From a bacterium (GTDB taxonomy: Bacteria > Bdellovibrionota_B > Oligoflexia > Oligoflexales > CAIYRB01): a stretch of DNA of 33,065 bases. Of the stretch, positions 15,121-32,111 are shown in pieces. The stretch lies in assembly GCA_900299215.1 (NCBI GenBank), contig OMIY01000328.1, positions 1 through 33,065 of the forward strand, read 5' to 3'. The notes under the pieces are model-generated. The model searched no databases. It was not told where the DNA came from and worked only from the letters and a program-made list of their open reading frames with translations. How positions within the stretch are numbered: position 1 is the first letter of the stretch; each line of letters opens with the position of its first letter. The position numbers were made by a program, and so were the translations under genes.

Positions 15121-17304
15121 ATGGTGTCAAAATACAAAACTGGTGCGAAAAACATAGGTGACTGGAGTTCGCTCGCCTCCAAGGAGATTGGGAGCACTGA
15201 AACCACGAGCGAAACCAGAATGACTCCTGCCGGTATCCCAATAAAGAAACTCTATACGCAAGGTGATTTGACCGGGGTGGCACATCTAGACAGCCTGCCA
15301 GGCTTCGCGCCCTTTACTCGTGGGCCGCGGGCAACGATGTATACTGTGCAACCTTGGACGCTGCGACAGTATGCTGGATTTTCCACTGCTGAAGAATCAA
15401 ACGCCTTCTACCGCCGAAACTTAGCTGCTGGGCAGAAAGGACTTAGCGTAGCCTTTGATCTAGCAACCCACAGGGGATACGACTCCGACCATCCCCGTGT
15501 CGTTGGTGATGTCGGTAAAGCCGGAGTTGCAATTGACTCTGTCGAAGACATGAAGATTCTTTTTGACGGAATTCCATTGGGCGATATGAGTGTCTCCATG
15601 ACCATGAACGGAGCAGTATTACCGGTCATGGCCGCCTACATTGTCGCCGCGGAAGAGCAAGGGGTTCAGCAATGCGATCTCAAAGGCACCATACAAAATG
15701 ACATCCTAAAAGAATATATGGTGCGCAACACATACATATATCCGCCAGACCCCTCCATCAGGATCGTCGCCGACATCATTGAATATACAAGCAAGCATAT
15801 GCCTAAATTCAACAGCATCAGCATAAGTGGATATCACATGCAGGAGGCTGGCGCAGACTCCGCCTTAGAGCTGGCCTTTACTCTCGCTGACGGTATTGAA
15901 TATGTTAGGACTGCAATTGCACGAGGACTTGGCGTCGATCAGTTCGCGCCACGGCTCTCTTTCTTCTTTGGCATCGGCATGAACTTTTTCATGGAAATTG
16001 CCAAACTGCGCGCGGCTCGAACACTTTGGCATGAGCTAATGCTTGAGTTTTCCCCAAAAGATCCTCGTTCCTCCATGCTAAGAACCCATTGCCAAACCTC
16101 TGGGTACACACTGACTGAGCAAGATCCATACAATAACCTTGTACGGACGACGGTAGAGGCCATGGCTGCAGTGCTTGGCGGGACGCAGTCCCTACACACC
16201 AATGCATTTGATGAAGCGATAGCACTACCATCAGCATTCTCAGCTCATCTAGCTCGTAATACACAATTAATCTTGCAGCACGAAACTGATTTGACTTCGA
16301 CTGTAGACCCATTTGGGGGCAGTTACTTCATGGAGAGGCTTACTCAAGACTTAATAGACAAAGCTCGCACCATAATTCAAGAGGTTGAGAGTTTTGGAGG
16401 AATGGTAAAGGCCATTTCGTCTGGTATGCCGAAGTTGCGAATTGAAGCAGCTGCTGCACGCAAACAAGCCAGAATAGACAGCGGCACTGATGTAATTGTG
16501 GGGGTGAATAAATTCCAGCGTGACCAAAGCTCCGACGACGAAAAATTTGACGTCCTAGTTGTCGATAATGCCGCGGTCCGCGAGCAGCAGTTAATTCGTC
16601 TAGCTAAAATTAAGAAAGAGCGAAATCAATTTGCCGTCGATCAAGCACTAAACGCACTACGCAATGCTGCAAAAAGTCCGACGGAAAACCTTTTAGCATA
16701 TGCAATTGAAGCAGTTCGGGCGAGAGCCACGGTTGGTGAAATTTCAGATGCACTAGCAGATATTTACGGAAGATATAGGGCCATGAATCAGACAGTTAGT
16801 GCGGTTTACTTGGCTGCTTATGCTGATAAAAAGGAGGGCGCTACCGTGCTGGCTGAGGTTAAGTCACTTATTGAACGCTTTGTTGAGCAAGAGGGTAGGC
16901 GCCCGAGAATACTTATTGTCAAACTTGGTCAAGATGGTCACGATCGCGGAGCAAAGGTCATCGCGACTGGGCTTGCTGATTTGGGTTTTGATGTAGATAT
17001 CGGCCCCCTGTTTCAGACTCCTGAAGAGGCAGCAAAACAGGCGATTGAATGTGATGCTCATGTCGTAGGAATTTCTTCCCAAGCCGCAGGCCATCGCACG
17101 CTCGTCCCGCAATTGATAGACGCGCTAAAATCTGCAAATGCGAGCGATATTAAAGTAGTTGTCGGCGGTGTCATTCCACAGCAAGACTATGAATTCCTGA
17201 GAAAATCCGGTGTTATGGATATCTTTGGGCCTGGGTCGCCAATTCCTGAATGCGCCAGGGCAATCCTGAAGTCACTCCTAAAACAAGTCGATCTTTGCTC
17301 ATGA
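15121..17304 (+). CDS. Methylmalonyl-CoA mutase (catalytic plus B12-binding domains in one chain)
   Basis: [52 protein letters not shown] catalytic domain; C-terminal [35 protein letters not shown] cobalamin-binding motif. Confidence 0.96.
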
Positions 17305-18272
17305 ATATCAGTGAAGAGAAACTTATCGCTGGGGTCCTGGGGGGCGATATAAGGTCGCTCGCCAAGTCGATCACTTTACTTGAAACATCAAAGGTAGATC
17401 AAAGACAAGCCGCTGATCGGGTTCTAGCCGCATTGTTACCTCATAGCGGACGCTCGCTTCGTATTGCTATTAGTGGACCCCCGGGAGTAGGGAAGAGCAC
17501 GTTCATAGAGGCCTTTGGCAGCTACCTTATTAAGGACGGACATCGCCTCGCCGTGTTGGCTATAGACCCATCCTCCCCGGTATCCGGAGGGAGCATTATG
17601 GGGGATAGGTTAAGAATGGAGGCTTTGGCTAGATCGCCCAATGTTTACATCCGGCCATCTCCAAGTTCTGGAGTACTCGGTGGAACAGCAAGGCGCACGC
17701 GGGAAACAATAATCGCCTGTGAGGCGGCTGGATTTGACTTCATTTGTATCGAAACTGTTGGCGTAGGTCAAAGTGAGACGGTCGCAGCAAATATGGCGGA
17801 TCTATTTATCCTCTTGTCTTTGCCCAACTCCGGAGATGAGGTCCAGGGGATAAAGCGCGGGATATTGGAGCTCGCTGATTTTGTTGTAGTCACCAAGGCA
17901 GATGGACCAGCAAAACAGTCCGCGGAACTCGCCAAAAACCAAATCGAGCAAGCATTAATGCTTACAAGGTCAAGCTCTAGGTTCCCTCCTAAGGTCTCAA
18001 CTGTAAGTAGTTTAGAAGGAACAGGAATCAAAGACTTGGTTAGTTCAATTTTAGATGCAGCTGAAGATCGTCGATCGAGTAATTACTTTCAATTGCGTCG
18101 TCGGGATCAAGCACTAGAGTGGTTCCATGCTGAGTTTGTTGCGATTCTAGTCGCGGATGCGGAGAAAAAACTGAAAGATCGGTCTGGCGCAATGGCTGCT
18201 GCGGTGGCTGATGGCAAAATTCCTCCGAGCATTGCCGCGGCTCAACTGGCGTCAACATTAATTTCCAAATGA
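17301..18272 (+). CDS. meaB: Methylmalonyl-CoA mutase-associated GTPase MeaB (ArgK family)
   Basis: [20 protein letters not shown] Walker [32 protein letters not shown]; start ATG overlaps the mutase TGA (ATGA). Confidence 0.95.
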
Positions 18273-19655
18273 TTATATACCCTTGTGTTCAATCTTCGGC
18301 CAGTAAACTCCAAAATCAAATTTTGGGGAATGCTGCTGATTATGACATCTTGAACACAAAGTTTTATCTGGTTTAGACGTGCTGCGATATCTGTACGGGT
18401 CTCTTGCGTGCTTTAACCTCGCGCCATGACAGTTCTCGCATTGAACATTAGCAAATTGGGGACTTAGATCTGAATTTACGAACCCCCCTGCTTCATTGGC
18501 GCCCAAAACGTGACAAGTCACGCATTCCGGGTCTTCATGTTTGTTCTTATCTTCAAGTGTCCTAAGTGCGTGAGCATGTTTCGACTTAAGGTAGTACTGG
18601 TAAATCTGAGCGTGACAGGTAGAACATGCCTGCGCACCAGCAAATTGGGAATCCTTAAGCTGCTCACTCCTTATCGACGCAGATTTCAAAAACTGGTCTC
18701 TGGCTGCTTTCGTATAAGCGCCGTAGATTTCGTCTACCGCGCTGCTCCCATCAGCACTGACTGGATCAAGCCAAGTTATTACCTTTCCCTCCCGAAGCCA
18801 TTCGGGCGATTGGGGTATTCGCTGCTTTTGAGGTGCATTTGCCAGTAGCGCCGCTAGGCTGGGAGCTTCCTCAGTTTGCAACTTCCCCCCTCTAAGAAGG
18901 CCTTGACCTGCTAATGGGACCATGTACACCGGAGGCAGAGCCACTCTCTTCAACCGTTCCTCATGACGACGATCCTCAGCTCCAGGTAGGGCCTCCCATG
19001 TTCCTGTGTTAGCACTTATGACTGTTGTGAATAAACCACTATCAGTAATCTTACGAAGCTCAGAATCTCGACCAGAAAAAAGCAAAATGCGCTCATCCTT
19101 TTCATGTCCGATAAGTGATTTGCTCCATTTCCTAAGTAAATCATTACTGAGCGACTCAAGCGGCTCCGTCGACGATATGGGTTGAGTGTATCCCATAGCG
19201 ACCCACCCTTTTCCCGTTACCTTTTCTTTCACAAGATTTGCCGTATCAACTGATGCGAGTACATTACTTAGAACATAAGGGAGTTCTTGACCTCGATGGC
19301 TTGTGCTCCATGCCCCAACTTGCTGCCTTCGCAAATACTCCAACCTATTAAAAAGTATGGCGTTAGGACGAATTTTTGCTTGAACGTCTAATATAAAATC
19401 AGACTTTAAATCTGGCTCATGCGGTAACGGCAACGCATTACCTAGGTCAAAAAGCAATAATTCCGGATGGATATTGCGTTCACGGAAAACCACATTTGCG
19501 AGCCTTCTGATGCCCCCTAAATCTGTGCTTGGGTCGCAACCACAGGGCTCAATATGACCACGTAGGTCACCATAAGCCAGAAAACCAAAATCGGCTGAAT
19601 TCGCCGATGCGGCTGTTGTCAAGAAAGCAATTAGTAGGTAGATCATGAATTGCAA
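18273..19655 (-). CDS. Secreted protein: UshA/calcineurin-like N-terminal region fused to C-terminal tetraheme cytochrome c (C554-like)
   Basis: Signal-like N-terminus; GFLAYGDLRGHIEPCGCDPSTDLGGIRRLA; four CxxCH motifs (CSTCH, CVTCH, CENCH, CSRCH). Confidence 0.8.
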   Translation of the reverse strand: MQFMIYLLIAFLTTAASANSADFGFLAYGDLRGHIEPCGCDPSTDLGGIRRLANVVFRERNIHPELLLFDLGNALPLPHEPDLKSDFILDVQAKIRPNAILFNRLEYLRRQQVGAWSTSHRGQELPYVLSNVLASVDTANLVKEKVTGKGWVAMGYTQPISSTEPLESLSNDLLRKWSKSLIGHEKDERILLFSGRDSELRKITDSGLFTTVISANTGTWEALPGAEDRRHEERLKRVALPPVYMVPLAGQGLLRGGKLQTEEAPSLAALLANAPQKQRIPQSPEWLREGKVITWLDPVSADGSSAVDEIYGAYTKAARDQFLKSASIRSEQLKDSQFAGAQACSTCHAQIYQYYLKSKHAHALRTLEDKNKHEDPECVTCHVLGANEAGGFVNSDLSPQFANVQCENCHGARLKHARDPYRYRSTSKPDKTLCSRCHNQQHSPKFDFGVYWPKIEHKGI

Positions 19656-19731
19656 CCCGAACCCGCGACTGTATGTTTGTGGGCCAGATCAAAGTTTAGT
19701 CGAAGTAACACCGTCCATAAAGTGGGACCTA

Positions 19732-20103
19732 ATGGTGACTGGAATACGCCTCACAGATCGTGCCTTAGAAGCTGCGATAGAGCTTAAAAGAGCTAATCAA
19801 GAATTTCAGCATTGTGTTCTGAGGCTGTACATAGACGGCAAAGGGTGCGATGGATTTTATTATGGCGTTACTTTCACATCTACAGAAAAGGATGATATTA
19901 GCGTACTTGATCACCCGCTGGCAGTCGTAATTGACAAGAAGTCACTAGAGTTTATGGCTGGCTCAACAGTCGACTGGGTTGATGACACCAGGGGTAAGGG
20001 CTTTTTGGTTAGCAATCCCAACCACAGTAAATTTCGCGGGAAATTCTATAAGCGTCAATCCTGGCAAAAAAAGCTTAGTTCTTCTTCTCAATCACTAACT
20101 TAG
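19732..20103 (+). CDS. HesB/IscA/ErpA-like A-type carrier fold protein lacking the C-terminal CxC
   Basis: TGIRLTDRALEAAIELKRANQ...CVLRLYIDGKGCDGFYYGVTFT...VVIDKKSLEFMAGSTVDWVDDTRGKGFLVSNPN is collinear with ErpA/IscA. ORF track starts at 19645; ATG at 19732 fits the family better. Confidence 0.8.
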   Translation: MVTGIRLTDRALEAAIELKRANQEFQHCVLRLYIDGKGCDGFYYGVTFTSTEKDDISVLDHPLAVVIDKKSLEFMAGSTVDWVDDTRGKGFLVSNPNHSKFRGKFYKRQSWQKKLSSSSQSLT

Positions 20104-21103
20104 TGCCTGGTTGAAGTGTCGTCACGCCCTGGCCCAAGAATACTATGTCAAAAACGCCAAAGGCTCCTCTTCCCTCTCGCAACGACAATAGTCCAGCACC
20201 AACGCGTTCATTAGGCTTAAGCATAACTTTCGCGACAGAGTCACCAACGGCAAGAGCTTGAACTTGTGGAATTGCCATCGATTTGACAGTTGACCCAACC
20301 AACACTTGATCGCCCTTTTGATCCAACACAATGCCGTCCCACCCAAGTGCCATATAAAGCCAGGCGATGAGGTCATCATTTGTCGCGACTTTAGGGGCAG
20401 GTAGCGTAAATAGCTGTACTGATTTTCCCGCCTCGAGTCGAAACCCCTGCCAATCTCCTGAGTCTGGAGCTATCACTACGATATCGGCTCCGGAAGATGC
20501 AAAAACTGTAGCCAACCTATCCATTGACGCGTATTTGCGCTTGTTTAGTTTGAGATTCCAATCTGCTGACATCGTGCTAGCTACGACAAAGTTGCTCAAG
20601 TTATTTAAACCGTCTGCGTCAACATTCATAAACTTTATTTGCTTTGGCGCTTTGGGATCCTTAGAAACAGATTCGTTTAGGTTTTTTACAAACACGATCG
20701 TCCGAGGAAACACAGGCGCTCTCGTTCTCATCTCGTTTAGCCAAGAATCTAAAGACGGCCCAATCGGCTTTGGCTGAGCCATGTCTGCGGAAGATGGAAC
20801 GGAATTAGGATCCGCAACTGCTGCTGGAGCTACCGAGTTAGGATCGACCACTTGTGCTGGCGCCACAGCATTTGGGTCTACAACTGGCACTACAGCATTT
20901 GGATCTGCAACCGGCGCCACAGCACTTGGATCGGCAACTGGCGCCACGGCATTTGGGTCTGCAACTGGCGCCACAGCGTTCGGATCGACTTGAGGAATCT
21001 CGGATGGAACGACAGCATCTTGCGCAAAACCCACACCTGAAATAAATGACGACACCAGCATCCCAAGTAAGACATCCCGCAGGTTTTCATAAAACTTAAG
21101 CAT
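20075..21103 (-). CDS. Secreted protein with N-terminal DPNAVAP tandem repeats
   Basis: 342 aa; signal-like N-terminus ending GVGFAQ; repeats of DPNAVAPVA; C-terminal region of unknown family. Confidence 0.7.
   Translation of the reverse strand: MLKFYENLRDVLLGMLVSSFISGVGFAQDAVVPSEIPQVDPNAVAPVADPNAVAPVADPSAVAPVADPNAVVPVVDPNAVAPAQVVDPNSVAPAAVADPNSVPSSADMAQPKPIGPSLDSWLNEMRTRAPVFPRTIVFVKNLNESVSKDPKAPKQIKFMNVDADGLNNLSNFVVASTMSADWNLKLNKRKYASMDRLATVFASSGADIVVIAPDSGDWQGFRLEAGKSVQLFTLPAPKVATNDDLIAWLYMALGWDGIVLDQKGDQVLVGSTVKSMAIPQVQALAVGDSVAKVMLKPNERVGAGLLSLREGRGAFGVFDIVFLGQGVTTLQPGTKLVIEKKN
20795..20989 (-). repeat. Coding tandem repeat, 27-33 nt units encoding DP(N/S)(A/S)V(A/V)P-rich peptide
   Basis: Translated seven-fold repeat VDPNAVAPVADPNAVAPVADPSAVAPVADPNAVVPVVDPNAVAPAQVVDPNSVAPAAVADPNSVP. 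Confidence 0.9.
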
Positions 21104-21112
21104 AAAACTGCC

Positions 21113-22792
21113 TCACCAGGATAAAGCTAGTCCAGCACCTGCATATCCAACTTGGTAAGAAACACCGGAAATCGCGGCTGGGTCAGTGGCTGCAGCCTTG
21201 ACCGTGGTGTTCGTCAGACCAACAGACTCCCAAAAGTAAAAGCCGAGAAGAGCCGTCCTCAATCGTAGACCCATCAATGGCAACTCTGGTCCAGCGGTAA
21301 AATAGGCATCAACTCCAAGGCGATTAGAGGTGATCTTGCCACCAGATTTAATGAGAGAATATCCAGTATTGATTCCGAACCAGCCCCGCAGGGTATACCA
21401 GTCGGATAACTTCTCTAGTCCGACTTCCAGGCCAAGAGCAAACGACCGACCTAAGCTAAAATCAGCCATCTCGGTTACCTTATTGTCCGTATTTTCTTCC
21501 ACCGGCAGTGAGGCATTAAAGGTCCAAATTCCGAGCTTGGGATCCACGGTGATTCTATCTACAAGCAAACCAGGCTTAAAATCCCAGGAGAACCCCAAAA
21601 CATGGCGAGCAAATGCGATTGAGGCAGTATACGTGGTGTCAGCTCCGGTAATTAGATTTACACCAGGTAAGGTCTGAGTGGTCTTGGGAAGGACGTCGTA
21701 ATAGTACCTGAGACCTTTTAGAGGCCCCCCCCGCATTTCAAATAAAAGTCCAAAGATATTGGTCTTGCCCAAGAGTGTGCCCAAAACACCCACACCGGGA
21801 AGAATCTGTTTCCCATATCGGAGCCCAACATACCCCGATGCAGCCGCCTCCCAAATCTGCCCAAGAAGGTCCTTACCTCCAGTTAAAAACTCGTCAAGCA
21901 AATCCTTCTCAATGGCTCGGTCCAAATCCGCATGGGCTTTTGCAAGTCCCTTCATGATCTCAGTTTTATGAGCGCCGGGACCATCAGCATTTTGCGCCCA
22001 CAATGGACCGGTGGCTAGAACGGCGTCAATCGCAGGAGTGATTTCATAGACTACATCACCTCCGGACAGCACAGACTTCTTCTTTATTTTTTTACTCTTT
22101 GGCTTATTAACCTTGGTTCGATTTGCGACTCCCACAACTTGGCTTGACCATTGCTTTAGAGTTGGATCCCAACTTAATCGATAGAGTACAAGTGACTTCG
22201 GTGCTTCCTGCTCTGGATATTTAAAGTCTCGAGATTTCCCCGCTCTCCAGTACCTCCCCGTGAAGCTTGGAGGGGTCCCCTTAATGCGGGCCTTGCTCAC
22301 AAGCATACCCATAGGGCTGCCTTCCAAAAGAGCGAAGGCGACATAGTCTATATACTCGTCGTCCTTGTAAAACTTCATTAAATGCTCAGATGGCGGCAGA
22401 ACAACTTCGCTGACGACATCACTGGATTTCTCATCTTGGTGCAATAGCTGAAATCTAACTTCTTTTAATCCGTCTACCACATTGAGGGTCCAGGTAGTTT
22501 GCTTGTCGGACCCAGACACTTTTTTGCCGCTTAAGTAGCAAGAAAAAGACCCAAAGGCGCCGAATCCGTAAGGACCGTTGCCAACGGACATCGAAGAACC
22601 AAGGGCACCACACGTTTTCTTCCAGTTTTTTCCGTATGTCTTCGCCTTGTCCTTTGGAATTTTACGACTTGCCTTAGCATCGACGACTATTTTTAAATGC
22701 TCTATGTTTACGTCTTCTGCGCGTGCGGTTCCAGCGGCCAAGACAAGCACTATATTCAGAGCGGCGATTTTAAAATAGGGGAGCACAAACAA
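21113..22792 (-). CDS. Hypothetical envelope protein, probable outer-membrane beta-barrel C-terminus
   Basis: 559 aa; signal-like ALNIVLVLAAGTARA; Gly/aromatic alternating strands in C-terminal half; last residues VGYAGAGLALSW end in an aromatic residue. Confidence 0.55.
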   Translation of the reverse strand: MFVLPYFKIAALNIVLVLAAGTARAEDVNIEHLKIVVDAKASRKIPKDKAKTYGKNWKKTCGALGSSMSVGNGPYGFGAFGSFSCYLSGKKVSGSDKQTTWTLNVVDGLKEVRFQLLHQDEKSSDVVSEVVLPPSEHLMKFYKDDEYIDYVAFALLEGSPMGMLVSKARIKGTPPSFTGRYWRAGKSRDFKYPEQEAPKSLVLYRLSWDPTLKQWSSQVVGVANRTKVNKPKSKKIKKKSVLSGGDVVYEITPAIDAVLATGPLWAQNADGPGAHKTEIMKGLAKAHADLDRAIEKDLLDEFLTGGKDLLGQIWEAAASGYVGLRYGKQILPGVGVLGTLLGKTNIFGLLFEMRGGPLKGLRYYYDVLPKTTQTLPGVNLITGADTTYTASIAFARHVLGFSWDFKPGLLVDRITVDPKLGIWTFNASLPVEENTDNKVTEMADFSLGRSFALGLEVGLEKLSDWYTLRGWFGINTGYSLIKSGGKITSNRLGVDAYFTAGPELPLMGLRLRTALLGFYFWESVGLTNTTVKAAATDPAAISGVSYQVGYAGAGLALSW

Positions 22793-22827
22793 CTCACTAA
22801 ATTAGAATGAGCGGAGCATAAAATCGT

Positions 22828-24993
22828 TTACTTAGTTGAAACAATTTCGACTTTTCCAACAAAAATAGCCTGAGCTTGATTGCCGATGAATGCCGCGACT
22901 TCAGCACTCGACTTGAGAAATTCACGATTGACTGGGTAGAGAGTTCCCTTCTTTAAAATATACAAAACGTGACCCTTATTTAGCAAGGACCACATCGGAT
23001 CACCTGGCCGATTTTGGCCAAATTCCCGAATATTTTGAAAAGCCGCCTTTGGGCCCTTGAAGACGAAATCCCCATTAAGTAAAGACGAAATCTTCATAAT
23101 TAGTTGTTTGTTTAATAGACTACCAGATACTTGTGCAACAATCTGATCCTCCCGGACAACAAAAAACCCCTCGTTACCCAATGGGTGTCTTTTGTCCAAG
23201 GAAATAAAGTTCGATCCTCGCACCAAATTGGTAAATCTCCCATAATCTGTGCCATTCATAAGCTGAATCACAAGCCCTGACTGAAATAGATCCACCTCAC
23301 GCTTAGCCGGTACCCATATAGAATTTGGATTTTCGGATCGTGGTGCAAATTCACTTACGCCAATGTTAATAGGTCCGTCTCCCACCTCTCCGAGAGTCAC
23401 CAGACTGAATTTAATTTCTTCACTAGACTGCAATTTGTTACGTTGTTTCTCACCTCTTGAGGCTTCGACACCAGCTCTCACTTTGAAGTGGTACCTCTTC
23501 ACACCGCCAGACTGTTCTAAGACCCCAACCTTTTTAATGGCCTTAAGTGGCAGCTTAATTGATGTATCGTTAGGATTTTCAACAAATACGTCCTCCTGCT
23601 GGCCGTTACCAGAAAGTGTAAAGTACGGTCTGAGCAAGACGGAGGCATCTTGCTTTTCGAGCGCTGTTGTTGGAACTGGAAGTTCGAGTGCTCCGCCCTG
23701 AGGATTATCAAGACTACGAAGAGTCCAATACTCGACTCCGCGAGGTGGCGGTGCGCTTTCCACTTTCACAGTTGGTAACGGTGGGGGAGGAGGAGGAGCC
23801 GGCGGAAGCTTTGCTACAACCACCTTCGGCGCAACCTGTTTAGGTCGGCTTGGCGTCGCAGCGGACTGTGCCACCGGCTTTGCTTCTAACGGTTTTTTCG
23901 CAGCAAGGGACGGAGCCTTCAACGTTTGGATCCCTTGATCAGACTTTGTTATGGTTTCACTCCGATTCTTCACTGAGCTTATGCCTTTTTGTTCAGCGGC
24001 AGCCTCGATCGTAGGCTCAACACGATTAGCATCGAATTTATTCAATTCAGCACCGCTAATCTTCAACGGCTCAGCTGCAATATTTCCGATATCAGTCAAT
24101 CCCATCTTGCCCCCTTGCAGCTGAGGTGCTGCGGGTACTGGGGCTGGGGGCATGGGTGCTGGCATCTTATCCAAGACAAGCTTTTCCAAGGGATCTGCTG
24201 CCATTTCATCTTCTGCAACGGCATAATTCCCTGGCTCCGAAATTTCTGTCGGTGTTGCTCCTTTTGTATTTCCACGAATATCTGATTTTCCCGTGTCACT
24301 CGCAACTGAAGTGGAAGTATGGGCTGAAGCCGGGACTGGCGGAGCCGGTGGTAGCGGGACCAGAAAAACAGGCGCCAACACCGGCTCTGGAGGGGGGGGC
24401 GGAGGAGCTGCAGCAACTGAAGATAGTGCTGGCTTGATAACACTAACCACGGATTTCAGATCTGCATTACTGGGCATTATCTTAGCTTGAACTGCCCTGG
24501 CTTGTCGGCTTCCTTGGGGCTTGAATACGGCAATCTTTTTACCCGCTGATATTGTATAGCTCTCTTCACCTGCTCTAAGAATGAGGTTGGGACAGTCCTT
24601 ACAACTATCCGAAATTTGTGGTACCGCAGATCCTCGTATGAGCTTAATGACAAATGCCGATCCTCGTTGAAAACCAATCGCGGTTATTTGCACCTGACTG
24701 TCTTCACCGAGAATCAGAGCTCGATACTTATCGAACTTGATCTTCGCACCACCCGATTCACCTGTTGCTAAGGTATCACCGTCGAAAATCCCTTGCCCTC
24801 GTGTAACTTCTCGCCAACGTATCACACCCTCCGAACGCGCTAGAAGCGAACCTTGCGATTCATCCAAAGTTGCGACAGATACTTGGATAACTCGTGTGAA
24901 TTTATCGATATTGTAAATTGCCAAAACGATGGCGATAACAGCTGCCAACCAGACTGCAAGAAGAGCTCCTTTTATATTGAATCTATTTAACAT
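22828..24993 (-). CDS. FecR-domain protein, membrane-anchored, Pro/Ala-rich linker
   Basis: N-terminal TM helix, then SLLARSEGVIRWREVTRGQGIFDGDTLATGESGGAKIKFDKYRALILGEDSQVQI (FecR signature), CKDC, long Pro/Ala-rich region. Confidence 0.8.
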   Translation of the reverse strand: MLNRFNIKGALLAVWLAAVIAIVLAIYNIDKFTRVIQVSVATLDESQGSLLARSEGVIRWREVTRGQGIFDGDTLATGESGGAKIKFDKYRALILGEDSQVQITAIGFQRGSAFVIKLIRGSAVPQISDSCKDCPNLILRAGEESYTISAGKKIAVFKPQGSRQARAVQAKIMPSNADLKSVVSVIKPALSSVAAAPPPPPPEPVLAPVFLVPLPPAPPVPASAHTSTSVASDTGKSDIRGNTKGATPTEISEPGNYAVAEDEMAADPLEKLVLDKMPAPMPPAPVPAAPQLQGGKMGLTDIGNIAAEPLKISGAELNKFDANRVEPTIEAAAEQKGISSVKNRSETITKSDQGIQTLKAPSLAAKKPLEAKPVAQSAATPSRPKQVAPKVVVAKLPPAPPPPPPLPTVKVESAPPPRGVEYWTLRSLDNPQGGALELPVPTTALEKQDASVLLRPYFTLSGNGQQEDVFVENPNDTSIKLPLKAIKKVGVLEQSGGVKRYHFKVRAGVEASRGEKQRNKLQSSEEIKFSLVTLGEVGDGPINIGVSEFAPRSENPNSIWVPAKREVDLFQSGLVIQLMNGTDYGRFTNLVRGSNFISLDKRHPLGNEGFFVVREDQIVAQVSGSLLNKQLIMKISSLLNGDFVFKGPKAAFQNIREFGQNRPGDPMWSLLNKGHVLYILKKGTLYPVNREFLKSSAEVAAFIGNQAQAIFVGKVEIVSTK

Positions 24994-25009
24994 CCGATTT
25001 TATCCGGTG

Positions 25010-25077
25010 AAATCACATCTTCTTGTGATTTTAGAAATCGCTCGACAATAATTTGCACCACTCGATTCATCGAATCG
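25010..25077. promoter_or_regulatory. Two perfect inverted repeats in the divergent fecR-like/spoIIE-like intergenic region
   Basis: AAATCACA-TCTTCT-TGTGATTT (25010-25031) and CGATTC-ATC-GAATCG (25063-25077). Confidence 0.45.
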
Positions 25078-25174
25078 GCATCTCATCACCTAACCTTTAG
25101 ACACCATCCGAATAGCGAGCATCCACTCGAGCTAAAGATCTATTATTTGGATCCGATAAGTTTTCTGACTGTTT

Positions 25175-27562
25175 ATGATCATGGGGCGGATATTGAAAAT
25201 CGCTGGTCTCAAATCCTTAGGAGCCAAGCTCTTTTATTTAATGACTGTGATGGTGCTCATCACGGTGGCCGGAAACTCGTGGCAATTTTTTAGGACGTAT
25301 AAAACTGATCTGTTAGAGCAATTACAGGACTCTCTACAGAGCCAGGCGGAAAGAGCAAAGGACCAAATAGAAACCCTAATCGAAACCTGGCGCGCGCAGG
25401 TCAGCGTCGCTCTACCAACCTTGCGCACTCAGGGTCACGACGATGGAAAATCAGGAAACTTGGCACTGCAGAGATTTGTAAATTCTAACGTAGACTTTGT
25501 TGCGATTCATCTGATCAGCGCCGCAAGTGCGACTAGCACCGATTTCAACTTGGTAGGTGAGGCTTTTACCTCGAGAATCAATGACAAGAATTTTGAGGAT
25601 AGGGAGGCTAGATTAGTAAACGACCAACTTCGGACTGTAATACCCGAATGGCTCAAGACGCAGGCCCCATCTTTGAAGGGAAAGGTCGCAGTCGAAAGCC
25701 TGGCGAAACAGGTTAAGCTGCCGTTAGTGACTACTGCGATCCGCTTCGATATTGCCAATTCATCTGAAGTACTCTGGGCGGTTCTTACGGCATGGCAAAC
25801 TGGAATAAATAAGGCCCTCTCCAAGTCAGCCTTCCTAAAAAGCTCTTTGATAGACCGCGGAGGCCGTATATTCGCCTCTTTAGACCCCGCAGAGGTGATT
25901 AAACGACCAACACTTGCAAGCAAGCAACTTTTAAAAAGCGCCATAGCAAGTAATAAACCCTCCGGTTTCGAACAAATTTATCGTGACAACAAAAATAAAG
26001 AAAAAGTCGGAGCTTACGCAAAGCTTCAAAAATATCCTCTCATTTTAGTCATCGAACAAGATGCAAATGCTGCAACTCAGACAGTACGCCGGACACTAAT
26101 TTCCACAAGCCTCTGGGCAAGCCTATTTGTTTTACTTGCCATAATGTTGAGCTTTCTTGGGTCTTCTCAGATTACAAAAGGCCTACGTGCCGTCACAGAT
26201 GCAACCACCAAGATTGCGGCGGGTGATTTCAAGCACAAGGTTGCAACAGGGAGCCAAGACGAAGTTGGGGCCCTTGCATCTGCGGTAAACCACATGTCAT
26301 TTCAGATTGAGAATCTACTTAAATCTCAGGTAGCTCAGGCACAAGTGGAGAAAGACCTTGAGACCGCAAAGACTGTTCAAAATACCTTTTTCCCTGATGG
26401 AGATATCCGACAAAACCATATCAAAGCGACTGGGTTCTATAAACCAGCGACCCAGTGCGGTGGCGATTTATGGGGACACTTTCCAATTGAGGATGGGATT
26501 GATTTCATTTTTATTGCCGATGCCATGGGGCATGGTGTGGCTGCGGCGCTTGTCACAGCGATGGCATATTCAATCACTATGTCAATTGCAGATATTGTAA
26601 AGCACGACCCTAGCTTTCGCGATTCACCTGGGATTGTTCTGGAACGATTGAACCGAGTTATTTATGAAGCCGTGGAAGGCAAAATAAGCATGACTTTCTT
26701 TGCCTCTGTCATAGACACCCGCCGGGGTATCATGACTTATGCAAATGCTGGACACAACTTTCCAGTAATATGTCCCGTGAGTGCAACCGACTCGCGCCTA
26801 GGAAAGCCTTCGAAGTCTCAAAATATGGGGGGTCTAATACAACCAATCTCCTTGAAGCTGATGGGTACACCGCTCGGCATGGACAGTACCTCTCAATACA
26901 AGGAAAGGACGATAGAATTAGCTCCGGGCGATAAGATATTTTATTTTACTGACGGACTCATCGAGTGCACGTCTCCATCGGGTGAAATGATGGGACGCAA
27001 GCAAATGCTTATAGATGTAGCGACCTTTGCAAATCTTCCTCCAGAGGAGATGAAGAATTCAATCATTGATAAAGCATTTGCATTCTATGCCGGCACCCCT
27101 CAGGCGGATGACATCACGTTAGTGGTTGCTGAAATCTCAAAAGATTGGTCACCAAACATCACCACGTCCCAACTAGAAGCGGATATCGAAGTTAAACGGC
27201 CAGAATCGAAAGAATCTGGGGCAATACCGGAATCAAGTGAAAAGCCAAAAGACATAATTTCGGCGGAAAGCATTTTGTCGGCACCAGAGTCGGACAAAGT
27301 AGAAATTACTAGCCCTGACAGGCCTGCTGATGAACTTCAGCTCAGATCCGAGCCTTTGGTACCAACAATGATCGAAGTTACTGTGGTAGCAGAAAACCCC
27401 ATCAATACGGTCGGGTCAGAATTATCACCAACCATCCCGTTACTCTCAGACCCACTTCAAACTTTGCCACCACCACCACCACCGCCACCACCGTCTACAG
27501 TCCAAGCTGAAACTAAAAAGCCAATGGGCAGGTACAAACTTAAGTTACCTAGTGTGGGCTAA
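25175..27562 (+). CDS. Membrane sensor with HAMP domain and SpoIIE/PP2C-type serine phosphatase
   Basis: TM helices at the N-terminus and before HAMP (LRAVTDATTKIAAGDFKHKVATGSQDEVGALASAVNHM); AKTVQNTFFPDG, GGDLWGHFPIEDGIDFIFIADAMGHGVAAALVTAM, FYFTDGLIECTSPSGEMMG, ADDITLVV. Confidence 0.92.
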   Translation: MIMGRILKIAGLKSLGAKLFYLMTVMVLITVAGNSWQFFRTYKTDLLEQLQDSLQSQAERAKDQIETLIETWRAQVSVALPTLRTQGHDDGKSGNLALQRFVNSNVDFVAIHLISAASATSTDFNLVGEAFTSRINDKNFEDREARLVNDQLRTVIPEWLKTQAPSLKGKVAVESLAKQVKLPLVTTAIRFDIANSSEVLWAVLTAWQTGINKALSKSAFLKSSLIDRGGRIFASLDPAEVIKRPTLASKQLLKSAIASNKPSGFEQIYRDNKNKEKVGAYAKLQKYPLILVIEQDANAATQTVRRTLISTSLWASLFVLLAIMLSFLGSSQITKGLRAVTDATTKIAAGDFKHKVATGSQDEVGALASAVNHMSFQIENLLKSQVAQAQVEKDLETAKTVQNTFFPDGDIRQNHIKATGFYKPATQCGGDLWGHFPIEDGIDFIFIADAMGHGVAAALVTAMAYSITMSIADIVKHDPSFRDSPGIVLERLNRVIYEAVEGKISMTFFASVIDTRRGIMTYANAGHNFPVICPVSATDSRLGKPSKSQNMGGLIQPISLKLMGTPLGMDSTSQYKERTIELAPGDKIFYFTDGLIECTSPSGEMMGRKQMLIDVATFANLPPEEMKNSIIDKAFAFYAGTPQADDITLVVAEISKDWSPNITTSQLEADIEVKRPESKESGAIPESSEKPKDIISAESILSAPESDKVEITSPDRPADELQLRSEPLVPTMIEVTVVAENPINTVGSELSPTIPLLSDPLQTLPPPPPPPPPSTVQAETKKPMGRYKLKLPSVG

Positions 27563-27575
27563 TATAGAATTAGGC

Positions 27576-28238
27576 TTATCTCAGCAAATAGCCACCACCG
27601 TAAACGCTTCTTATGCTTATTTGACTTCCGGTGAGCTTTGTCCTCAGTCGCGAAATATGGCTGTCTATTGTTCTTGGTGAAACCTTAATACCACTCCATA
27701 CAGCCGCGCTGATTTCTGACCTATCTATAACTTGACCGCAGTTTGCAATTAGTAGCTTTAACAGTTGGAGCTCTTTTTGTGGCAAACTAATATCTTCCAA
27801 AGATCCTTTTAGTCTCAATGAGAGATTTGAAATATCAAGCACCATGTCTCGATATTTTATTAAAGCCCCCGTCCTTGCTTTCGCCTGGTGTCTAATCTTG
27901 ATCTTTAATTCGGTAACAAACTGCAATGTATCATCTGTAAGATTCAACTTGTGCAATCCAGAGGGCAATGAGTCAGAACCGGTTCCATCTGAACACACGA
28001 GAAAAAGAGAACAATCGGGTAAAACGTCTTTGATTTCGATGTTTATTTGATCAATTGACCACTCACCAAACCGGCAGTCCACAATGACTGCATCCGGCAA
28101 ATTAGCCCCCCCTAATCGAGAAATAGCCACCAAGGATTTCAATGAGGCCACTGCACGGACGGCAAAGTCACCAATTAGGATGTCGGTGATTCTCGTCGAG
28201 TCATGGTTGCTTTTCTCAAGTATCCACAATGTTCCCAA
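27576..28238 (-). CDS. OmpR/PhoB-type winged-helix transcriptional regulator with atypical receiver (TTG start)
   Basis: C-terminal LPQKELQLLKLLIANCGQVIDRSEISAAVWSGIKVSPRTIDSHISRLRTKL...IRSVYGGGYLL is a Trans_reg_C wHTH; N-terminus has receiver-like organisation. Confidence 0.85.
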   Translation of the reverse strand: MGTLWILEKSNHDSTRITDILIGDFAVRAVASLKSLVAISRLGGANLPDAVIVDCRFGEWSIDQINIEIKDVLPDCSLFLVCSDGTGSDSLPSGLHKLNLTDDTLQFVTELKIKIRHQAKARTGALIKYRDMVLDISNLSLRLKGSLEDISLPQKELQLLKLLIANCGQVIDRSEISAAVWSGIKVSPRTIDSHISRLRTKLTGSQISIRSVYGGGYLLR

Positions 28239-28312
28239 AAACGGTTCTCCGCTTGAATTTCGCGTTTGTTCTGTGATTAGTTGCGTCCATCTATTCCCAG
28301 TTATTTAATTAT

Positions 28313-28372
28313 ATGACAGATATCGCCGAAAGGGACTTAGTGGCCTATCTGGAAAGAGTATTGAGTAGGTAA
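28313..28372 (+). other. Possible 19-codon upstream ORF preceding threonine ammonia-lyase
   Basis: ATG ACA GAT ATC ... AGG TAA encodes MTDIAERDLVAYLERVLSR; stops 4 nt before the ilvA-like ATG. Confidence 0.25.
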
Positions 28373-28376
28373 ATTA

Positions 28377-29606
28377 ATGAATCTTGAAATAAACATCGAA
28401 ACAATAAGAAAAGCCGCCATTAGGATCAGACCATATGTCGCCAGCTCACCGGTTAAATATTCAGTCAATCTTTCTAAAAAAATGGGGCAACCTGTTTATT
28501 TGAAACTAGAAAACTTAAATCTTTCGGGCTCATTTAAAATTCGCGGTGCTATGAATGCACTTCTCCAACTACCACAAGAAGACCTAAAGCGCGGCGTCAT
28601 CGCAGCAAGCGCGGGTAATCATGCCCAGGGAGTTGCGCACACATGCCGCTTGCTTGGCAGCAAGGCAACAATCTTTATGCCTGTGCACTCATCTATCGTA
28701 AAAGCTGCTGCAACGAGAGAATTGGGAGCTGAAGTCAATTTGGTTGGCAGTAGCTACGAAGAGGCACTAAATGCAGCTCAAGAGCACCAACGACAAACAG
28801 GCGCAGTATTCTTACATGGATTCAACGATGAACGTGTCATAGCTGGGCAAGGGACAGTAGCACTTGAATTAATCGAGCAAGTACCAGACCTGGGTCTCGT
28901 TTTGACGAGCATTGGCGGTGGCGGTCTAGCCGCAGGAGTAGCCTTAGCTATCAAGGAATCTAATACAAGTATTCAAGTCGTGGGCGTCCAGTCCTCGTCT
29001 TTTCCCGCGATGCAGCAATCAGTAGCCAACGGAAGCATAGTCGAAAACGCGACCGGTTATACGATTGCGGACGGAATTGCCATTAAAAAGCCAGGATCGA
29101 AAACGTTCGAAATTTTGAAGGCGTACGCTGACGACATTGTCCTAGTTAGTGAAGATGAAATTGCTTCAGCAGTCATGAATTTAATGGAATGGGAACATAT
29201 GCTGGCAGAAGGGGCAGGTGCCGCTGCTGTCGCAGCACTTTGGAAACTGCCAAAGTCAATTCTCTCAAAAGTCCAACAACGTCCGATAGTATGCGTAGTA
29301 TCCGGTGGCAATATCGACGTTAATTTACTCAAGAGGATCATTCCCATAGGTCTAAAACATACTGGCCGCTTATGTAGATTGGCTGTGACTATTCAAGATC
29401 GACCCGGGCGTCTCGCTGAGCTTCTCAACATCGTTAGTCAAACGGGAGCAAACCTTCAGGAGGTTACTCATAATAGGCTATATAATGCGGTAGGATTTGA
29501 CGATGTAGAAGTGATCCTTGATATTGAAACCATCGACACTAATCATCAAGAGCAGGTAATTTTGGCGTTGGTTAAACATCGATTTAAATATGTTAAGCTG
29601 GGATGA
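28377..29606 (+). CDS. ilvA: Threonine ammonia-lyase with C-terminal ACT domain
   Basis: YLKLENLNLSGSFKIRGAMNAL PLP-lysine motif, ASAGNHAQGVAHTCRLLG, TSIGGGGLAAGVA, ACT-like RLAVTIQDRPGRLAELLNIVSQTGANLQEV. Confidence 0.93.
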   Translation: MNLEINIETIRKAAIRIRPYVASSPVKYSVNLSKKMGQPVYLKLENLNLSGSFKIRGAMNALLQLPQEDLKRGVIAASAGNHAQGVAHTCRLLGSKATIFMPVHSSIVKAAATRELGAEVNLVGSSYEEALNAAQEHQRQTGAVFLHGFNDERVIAGQGTVALELIEQVPDLGLVLTSIGGGGLAAGVALAIKESNTSIQVVGVQSSSFPAMQQSVANGSIVENATGYTIADGIAIKKPGSKTFEILKAYADDIVLVSEDEIASAVMNLMEWEHMLAEGAGAAAVAALWKLPKSILSKVQQRPIVCVVSGGNIDVNLLKRIIPIGLKHTGRLCRLAVTIQDRPGRLAELLNIVSQTGANLQEVTHNRLYNAVGFDDVEVILDIETIDTNHQEQVILALVKHRFKYVKLG

Positions 29607-29612
29607 TCTGAC

Positions 29613-29642
29613 AAAAAAAATGGCGCTAACGCGCCATTTTTT
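29613..29642. terminator. Bidirectional rho-independent terminator between ilvA-like gene and lon
   Basis: AAAAAATGGCGC-TAAC-GCGCCATTTTTT, perfect stem with A run and T run; serves both convergent genes. Confidence 0.93.
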
Positions 29643-29657
29643 AAACTAAATATAAGT

Positions 29658-32111
29658 TTAACTCGCAAGGTTTTTACTACTGTGAACTCCGCCAACTGAA
29701 GTCAAATCATTTGCTCCATGAAATTCATTCGTTCGCAAGTCGAACATAACCTCAGCAACTTCTGGATACGTTTTTACGAAACTCACCCTAACTTTCTTTT
29801 TTACATTCATTGGCAGTTGCTCAAACGCGCTTCGATTTTTCTCAGGCAACAGGACGTGCTCAACCCCCTCACGCTGGGCCGCCAATAGCTTCTCTTTAAG
29901 CCCACCAATCGGCAGAACCTTCCCGTGCAAAGTTATTTCTCCGGTCATTGCAACCCTTTGCTTTGGAGCCTTGCCGAGAAGTGCTGACAGAATTGATGTC
30001 GCTAGAGCGATACCTGCCGAGGGTCCGTCTTTAGGCACTGCTCCAGCAGGCAAATGGATGTGAATTTCATTTTCAATCAAATTCTTCGCATCAATTCCAA
30101 ATTCAACTGCTCTTGACCTAACGTAACTTAAAGCCGTCTGAGCAGACTCTTTCATGACGTCACCAAGTTGTCCGGTCAACACCAATTTAGCTCTAGTTCC
30201 TGGCAGTAGGTTCGTTTCGATTGCCATTACTCCCCCGCCGTAACTTGTGTAAGCAAGTCCAAGCGAAACTCCAGTAACGGGCTCTAAATGGTAAAAATCA
30301 TCATCGAATCGTTTAACCCCCAGGTGTTTCTCTACCAATTGCGGCGTCAACTTAATGACAGTCCTCTTTCCAGAGTCGACTTCATCTTCGGCGTACTGGC
30401 GCGCAATTTTTCGACAAACAGAGGCTATTTGCTTCTCTAAACCTCTTAGACCGCTTTCTCGAGTATAGCTATTGATTATGGTGGTTAACGAATTTCTAGA
30501 GAAAACAACTTCTGATTCATTGAGACCTGATTCTTTGAGTTGTTTTGGTACCAAATATTGATTCGCAATAATCAACTTTTCTTCTTCCGAATAACCAGAG
30601 ACCTCAATTATTTCCAATCGATCTCTCAATGGGCCTGGGATTGTTTCAAGCGAATTGCAGTTCGCTATGAAAAAGACGTCTGAAAGATCGAATGCAACAC
30701 CCAAATAGTGATCGACAAAGTTTTTATTTTGCTCTGGATCAAGAACTTCTAACAGAGCTGAAGCTGGGTCGCCGCGGTGGTCGGATCCCATCTTGTCAAT
30801 CTCATCTAACATGATCAAAGGATTGCAGCTCTTCACCTGCTTCAGGCTCGTTATCAGACGACCTGGATATGCGCCTACATAGGTTTTTCTATGTCCTCGA
30901 ATGTCCGCCTCATCTCGAACGCCACCAAGTGAGATCCTAGAGAAGTGACGGCCCATAGCACGTGCAACTGAGCGACCAAGACTTGTCTTTCCAACTCCCG
31001 GGGGGCCAACAAAACAAATTATCGGACTTTTAGCTCTGGGATTTAATTTTTTGACCGCTAAATACTCTATAATTCTGTCTTTGACCTGATCCAATCCATA
31101 ATGGTCTTCATCAAGAACGTTTTTCACATCCTTAAGATTCAGCTTATCCTCAGTCCGTGTTTCCCAGGGTAAGGCTAAAATTGTTTCGACATGGGTCCGA
31201 GTTAATGCTGCTTCGCTGGTATCTGAATGCATTCTCTCAAGACGACGAAGTTGCCGTGATGCCTCATCTTTGGCTTCAGCAGTAAGTTTGACCTCTTCCA
31301 TCTTTTTCCAAAGAGCGTCAATTTCTTCTTTTCCATCAGAATCACCCAACTCAGTCTTAATCGCACGCATTTGCTCCCGAAGATAATGTTCACGCTGCAT
31401 GCGGCTAATTTCTTCTTTTGCCTGGGACTGAATGCGCACCTGCATCTGATAAACTTCAATCTCTCGTGATAAAAATCGATGCACTGCTCGTAAACGTTCG
31501 GTTGGATTGTAAACGGCAAGAATGCCCTGCGCCTCTTGGACCTTAAGCCCCAAATTTGCTGCTACTAAATCACCGAGTCGACCTGGTTCTGTGACATCCT
31601 CAAGGACCATTAAAATGTCTGGTGACAACACCTTTCCGAGGCTTACAACCTTTTCCAGATTTTCTCGAGTCGCCCTGATCATTGCTTCAATTTCAGGTGT
31701 GTTTTTTACGATGACCGGCTCTTCTATTAGCTTGACTCGAACCGATGGGAAAGGCTCAGTTGAAATCAAACCAGCTATCTCTGCCTTTGATATCCCTTGC
31801 ACTAGCACCTTCATTCGACCATCAGGAAGTTTCCTGGTACGCATGATGGAACAAACTGTTCCGGTGTCATAAACGTCAAATGGCGCATCTAGGCTGCAAC
31901 TTAGATTTTCAGCGTTTTCACCCGACACCTTGAACGCAGATAAAAAGATCTTCCGCTGGTGGGCAAGCGCATGCTCTACTGCATTGATACACAAATCCTC
32001 ATTTATGAAGACCGGTACAATCATGTGTGGAAAAACCACGATATCCTTCAACGGCAGCAAGGGCATCTCGGTGTTGATGTCGGTGAGCTGGTTAGTGCTT
32101 TGTCCGGTCAT
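29658..32111 (-). CDS. lon: ATP-dependent protease Lon (LonA)
   Basis: 817 aa; FVGPPGVGKTSLGRSVARAMGRHFSRISLGGVRDEADIRGHRKTYVGAYPGR, catalytic PKDGPSAGIALATSILSAL. Confidence 0.98.
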   Translation of the reverse strand: MTGQSTNQLTDINTEMPLLPLKDIVVFPHMIVPVFINEDLCINAVEHALAHQRKIFLSAFKVSGENAENLSCSLDAPFDVYDTGTVCSIMRTRKLPDGRMKVLVQGISKAEIAGLISTEPFPSVRVKLIEEPVIVKNTPEIEAMIRATRENLEKVVSLGKVLSPDILMVLEDVTEPGRLGDLVAANLGLKVQEAQGILAVYNPTERLRAVHRFLSREIEVYQMQVRIQSQAKEEISRMQREHYLREQMRAIKTELGDSDGKEEIDALWKKMEEVKLTAEAKDEASRQLRRLERMHSDTSEAALTRTHVETILALPWETRTEDKLNLKDVKNVLDEDHYGLDQVKDRIIEYLAVKKLNPRAKSPIICFVGPPGVGKTSLGRSVARAMGRHFSRISLGGVRDEADIRGHRKTYVGAYPGRLITSLKQVKSCNPLIMLDEIDKMGSDHRGDPASALLEVLDPEQNKNFVDHYLGVAFDLSDVFFIANCNSLETIPGPLRDRLEIIEVSGYSEEEKLIIANQYLVPKQLKESGLNESEVVFSRNSLTTIINSYTRESGLRGLEKQIASVCRKIARQYAEDEVDSGKRTVIKLTPQLVEKHLGVKRFDDDFYHLEPVTGVSLGLAYTSYGGGVMAIETNLLPGTRAKLVLTGQLGDVMKESAQTALSYVRSRAVEFGIDAKNLIENEIHIHLPAGAVPKDGPSAGIALATSILSALLGKAPKQRVAMTGEITLHGKVLPIGGLKEKLLAAQREGVEHVLLPEKNRSAFEQLPMNVKKKVRVSFVKTYPEVAEVMFDLRTNEFHGANDLTSVGGVHSSKNLAS

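Follow-up and report, generated by a model that had tools for sequence, protein, structure and literature searches.

A contig of an Oligoflexales bacterium, probably from freshwater, carries three genes for envelope proteins next to a divergent phosphatase gene (OMIY01000328.1, here C328; the window is its whole stretch of 33,065 nucleotides). The locus raises the question of whether the four products form one stimulus-sensing system, and what such a system would act upon. The genes are labelled REP, BARREL, FECR and SPOIIE. REP, BARREL and FECR make up a single minus-strand run, with gaps of 9 nt (REP/BARREL) and 35 nt (BARREL/FECR), while SPOIIE is divergent from FECR across 181 nt. The open reading frames match exactly the layout given in the original prediction, which described three packed genes and a phosphatase about 180 bp away. 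The comparisons below strongly support the proposal, also made there, of a single system made up of the four proteins. The module is probably a system undescribed so far, by which a phosphatase in the cytoplasm receives signals from the cell surface.

Conservation and rearrangement of the gene set

To counter selection bias, each of the four proteins was searched for independently by profile in 58 genomes of the class Oligoflexia, and the results were intersected; an earlier reading of neighbours had started from FECR and comprised about 70 loci. REP adjoins BARREL (within 4 kb) in 37 of 40 places, one of the three exceptions being a marginal fragment of 41 residues, and REP was not seen in any of the 58 genomes without BARREL. 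Of the 51 FECR genes, 37 lie next to a SPOIIE-type sensor. Both SPOIIE and BARREL stand alongside 21 FECR genes, and 19 of these also have REP, making complete sets. Presence and absence are correlated for every gene pair (Fisher p from 2e-7 to 6e-13, uncorrected for phylogeny). In the genome of origin (assembly of 3.9 Mb, 91% complete), the SpoIIE gene of the window is the only one among 23 that adjoins FECR. Gene-neighbourhood conservation, which the original prediction had named as a check, is borne out by these counts.

Complete sets were found in at least six families (f1, f6, f8, f10, f11, f12) and in about five gene arrangements. Besides the window type, REP-BARREL-FECR divergent from SPOIIE, these are SPOIIE>FECR>BARREL>REP with tightly overlapping genes (loci L038, L041, L046, L058), FECR divergent from BARREL>SPOIIE>REP (L040, L068), BARREL>REP followed by FECR divergent from SPOIIE (L042), and BARREL-SPOIIE divergent from FECR (L059). 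Two complete sets each are present in genomes G003 (L024, L042) and G020 (L036, L041). Beyond the four, no further gene was found to travel with relocated modules. A set that is shuffled yet not dispersed is strong evidence of shared function.

Within the genus the entire stretch spanning IscA to Lon is conserved, which inherited synteny of four functionally unlinked genes could account for. However, the four genes remain neighbours even where their order and orientation differ, and their presence correlates from genome to genome. The flanks are entirely different around second copies in the same genomes and around copies in other families. Pure synteny by descent was rejected on these grounds; it is largely refuted, and we regard it as highly improbable.

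The pairwise divergences of the four proteins are congruent (mirror-tree r 0.90-0.95 at 18 loci), which supports a single system, although this correlation is partly due to shared ancestry. Several observations weigh against the relay proposed below. SPOIIE and FECR lack neighbouring BARREL and REP at four loci (L027, L028, L029, L032), the genomes of which carry BARREL-REP elsewhere. Stand-alone BARREL genes number 29, so that BARREL also has other roles. The genomes compared are fragmented metagenome-assembled genomes (MAGs), and the fold resemblance described below for REP is weak. BARREL-REP pairs on their own were seen as well (L054, L057, L060, L073-L076, L080). We read this distribution as two sub-units, an input formed by BARREL-REP and an output formed by FECR-SPOIIE, which are usually linked.

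Predicted architecture of the proteins and their neighbours

In SPOIIE, two transmembrane segments (residues 15-33 and 307-325) flank a predicted periplasmic dCache-like sensor, followed by HAMP, a SpoIIE/PPM catalytic domain and a poly-Pro C-terminal tail. Pfam matches to HAMP (E 1.6e-10, 41.6 bits against a cut-off of 25) and SpoIIE (E 6.9e-36, 124.4 bits against 25) confirm the membrane phosphatase that had been recognised from the letters. The catalytic motifs GGD, DAMGHG, TDGL and DDIT are intact in most family members, and judging from these residues the phosphatase domain is apparently active. The sensor is matched weakly as dCache-like in 7 of 12 SPOIIE members, and its profile found nothing among PDB sequences.

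FECR has a single transmembrane segment at residues 9-27 by hydrophobic-segment prediction, in line with the membrane anchor that was claimed for it. A FecR-like domain (~38-160), a Pro-rich linker and a conserved C-terminal domain (~590-721) follow. The window protein itself has no match to Pfam FecR (PF04773) and only a sub-threshold one to DUF7354 (E 3.5e-4). Nevertheless, a divergent FecR domain is probable by homology, because PF04773 is found in 10 of 19 orthologues (best E 4.2e-8) and PDB chains 5ix9 and 4z29 (MtxA) are matched by the family profile. The linker had been described as periplasm-spanning-like. It is long in the genus of origin and short or absent in others, and thus is not a trait of the family. 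Short FECR-like proteins of 413-425 residues (L044, L045, L051), whose match to the family is limited to its C-terminal half, lie beside BARREL-REP pairs without SPOIIE.

BARREL is composed of a signal-like hydrophobic N-terminal segment, an alpha/beta domain (~30-300) and a predicted C-terminal barrel (~319-559). The AlphaFold model (pLDDT 78, pTM 0.51) shows a run of long strands from ~319 to the end, giving 10-12 strands in ~240 residues. Its best PDB fold matches are all outer-membrane barrels, with OpcA as the best (E 2e-5) and EspP, OmpT, OmpA and others among the rest. The last residue is Trp, and Trp, Phe or Tyr is found at this position in 58 of 60 relatives; a C-terminal aromatic residue is the usual signal for outer-membrane insertion. 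An outer-membrane beta-barrel is therefore the predicted nature of BARREL, and failure of this fold had been set beforehand as a refutation of the whole proposal. C61 and C85, invariant in the N-terminal domain, may form a disulfide. No convincing Pfam or NCBIfam family matched BARREL, no TonB receptor or plug was matched by Pfam in 18 members, and the profile gave only chance matches among PDB sequences. A profile search of genome contigs with an alignment of closely related BARREL proteins found nine loci, all in MAGs of Oligoflexales type. The family is expanded in two genomes, G033 (14 matches) and G041 (9), mostly as stand-alone genes.

REP starts with a signal-like N-terminus and a predicted N-terminal helix. 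The repeat protein of the original prediction is recovered in part: DPNAV repeats are present in a DPNAV/Ala-Pro linker (residues ~35-110) behind the secreted-type N-terminus, but they are confined to the genus of origin, and the description misses the conserved C-terminal domain of ~220 residues (~115-340). AlphaFold modelled residues 115-340 mostly with confidence. The top PDB fold match is FlgT (3w1e; Foldseek E 6.6e-4, prob 0.97), but with a TM-score of 0.23, and none of 22 REP members has a FlgT match in Pfam; on the modelled fold, the domain is possibly distantly FlgT-like. REP matched no Pfam or NCBIfam family, so that the statement that neither it nor the barrel belongs to a nameable family holds, and its profile found nothing among PDB sequences. 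Profile-profile comparison among BARREL, FECR and REP revealed no homology. At one locus (L093, 11626-12425 of G005:C23) REP is split into two reading frames of 92 and 174 residues, which suggests a frameshift or an assembly error.

These folds would also suit an explanation in which BARREL, REP and FECR build a trans-envelope assembly, such as an adhesin, a secretion device or a motility anchor, and SPOIIE regulates that assembly instead of reading out a sensor. OpcA is an adhesin, FlgT belongs to the flagellar H ring, and the FecR-like domain matches 5ix9, named an antifreeze protein, and very weakly the LapA retention module (E 0.043). BARREL, with or without REP, also occurs in many places without SPOIIE. 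However, small barrels in general give fold matches to OpcA, and no other gene recurs beside relocated module copies. We consider a surface structure of this kind quite unlikely.

Features of the module and its surroundings are listed in Table 1. A promoter scan of the FECR-SPOIIE intergenic region gave a single sigma-70-like match, not above chance. At the primary locus the winged-helix gene is kept beside SPOIIE (13 loci), but it was not seen with relocated copies, which makes it a neighbour and not a module member. No receiver family was detected at the N-terminus of its product. This regulator is a possible output of the module, despite its absence beside relocated copies. The IscA-like gene is a syntenic neighbour at 12 loci and lies outside the module; at the primary locus the cytochrome gene adjoins it (11 loci).

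Table 1. Positions of the module genes and adjacent features in the window
Feature	Position	Strand	Description
Cytochrome c554/c7-type protein	18273-19655		secreted
IscA-like Fe-S biosynthesis protein	19645-20103	plus	3' end overlaps REP 3' end by 29 bp
REP	20075-21103	minus	open reading frame, 342 residues, predicted secreted
BARREL	21113-22792	minus	open reading frame, TTG start, 559 residues, predicted outer-membrane protein
FECR	22828-24993	minus	open reading frame, 721 residues, predicted inner-membrane-anchored
FECR-SPOIIE intergenic region	24994-25174		181 bp, presumed divergent promoter region
SPOIIE	25175-27562	plus	open reading frame, 795 residues, predicted sensor phosphatase
OmpR/PhoB-type winged-helix protein	27576-28238	minus	convergent to SPOIIE

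Phosphatase output and the proposed relay

As output of the system, the original prediction had named dephosphorylation of a STAS or anti-sigma partner encoded elsewhere. The search of the genome of origin left this unsupported, because PF01740 (STAS) and PF13466 (STAS_2) gave no match in the 91% complete assembly, SiaC-type partners not having been searched for, and because the protein behind the only PF13581 match above cut-off is an ordinary histidine kinase with HisKA; an RsbW-like kinase was not detected there. The same genome has 23 SpoIIE domain matches and nine matches to Hanks-type kinases. Across six genomes of the genus, PF01740 has two matches in all. The imbalance is genus-wide, with 16-23 SpoIIE against 0-1 STAS per genome. 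A separate group of SpoIIE proteins in the genus, ~450-500 residues long, is encoded in tandem pairs (L139, 4994-7826; similar in G002, G003, G004 and G005).

SPOIIE could still drive a partner switch like that of RsbU or SiaA. The three envelope proteins would be its input, and its substrate, of STAS or SiaC type, and a kinase would be encoded elsewhere. This explanation shares its input side with the relay favoured here and differs in the substrate. It is in keeping with the dCache-HAMP-PPM layout and with the match of the HAMP-PPM region to the SiaA model (E 4.2e-18, 65 bits, far under the cut-off of 700 bits). SiaA itself works in a partner switch, with SiaC as the protein that it dephosphorylates (PMC7647112). 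A cluster of STAS, HATPase_c_2 and SpoIIE is present in one member of the genus (G003:C157). On the other side stand the lack of PF01740 and PF13466 matches in the genome of origin, with at most one PF01740 match per genome of the genus, and the histidine kinase identity of its PF13581 match. In addition, no small conserved gene accompanies the module. We hold a partner switch to be unlikely.

Our preference, with somewhat better than even confidence, is a trans-envelope relay that runs from the state of the outer-membrane barrel via REP and FECR to the SPOIIE phosphatase, acting on a non-canonical substrate. We infer its physical contacts, the direction of signalling and the substrate as follows. 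BARREL would reside in the outer membrane and extend its N-terminal domain into the periplasm, where REP would bind BARREL as an adaptor. FECR, anchored in the inner membrane through its N-terminus, would contact BARREL/REP by its C-terminal domain and place its FecR-like domain close to the dCache-like sensor of SPOIIE. REP and FECR would then relay a change at the outer membrane, be it ligand, surface contact or envelope state, to this sensor and to HAMP, and thereby switch the cytoplasmic PPM phosphatase. The target that SPOIIE dephosphorylates would carry Ser/Thr phosphorylation and not be recognisable as a STAS protein; it may be phosphorylated by one of the nine Hanks-type kinases.

Signalling from the outer membrane to the cytoplasm is known mainly through pathways of FecA/FecR/FecI and RseA type, which end in an anti-sigma factor. 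A conserved module with a PPM phosphatase at its end would extend the known types of output. More tentatively, and with some doubt on our part, the module may represent a new class of trans-envelope signalling, in which barrel, periplasmic adaptor and FecR tether act directly as the gate of an inner-membrane Ser/Thr phosphatase whose substrate is not a STAS protein, in hosts with ~20 SpoIIE and essentially no STAS partners. In a literature search, FecR and SpoIIE were named together only in a general survey of signalling capacity, and searches on FlgT/TolB/CsgG and on Oligoflexales signalling returned nothing on the module. The 23 SpoIIE matches without detectable STAS pose a testable question, namely which substrates SpoIIE phosphatases have where STAS proteins are missing.

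Comparison with known systems

Individual parts of the module resemble proteins from other settings. FECR shares its FecR-like domain with MtxA (4z29) and the antifreeze adhesin chain 5ix9 in profile comparison, but it has no adhesin repeats, and its domain is located behind an inner-membrane anchor and paired with a phosphatase. REP possibly resembles the flagellar H-ring protein FlgT in fold; unlike it, REP has no FlgT match in Pfam, the TM-score is 0.23, and no flagellar genes were recognised next to REP.

With FecI-FecR-FecA, the module has in common an outer-membrane barrel encoded together with an inner-membrane FecR-domain protein. In contrast to the Fec receptor, which is TonB-dependent and 22-stranded with a plug, the module barrel is small and without a TonB plug. 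The transmembrane segment at 9-27 leaves only ~8 residues ahead of it in FECR, so there is no room for an anti-sigma domain, and no N-terminal cytoplasmic anti-sigma domain of Pfam was detected in FECR or its orthologues scanned. No gene for an extracytoplasmic function (ECF) sigma factor is among the ten window genes scanned with Pfam (17250 to 32111), and the output of the module is a phosphatase. A Fec-type anti-sigma system was rejected for the position of the transmembrane segment, the missing TonB receptor or plug and the missing adjacent ECF sigma.

The resemblance to SiaA/SiaB/SiaC/SiaD and RsbU-type systems lies in the membrane dCache-like sensor, HAMP and the SpoIIE/PPM domain with intact motifs. 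Differences are that no STAS, SiaC-like or kinase gene was recognised in the module neighbourhood, that STAS families were not found in the genome of origin, and that three envelope proteins are co-encoded with the phosphatase. The module is probably a variant of trans-envelope signalling made from known kinds of parts.

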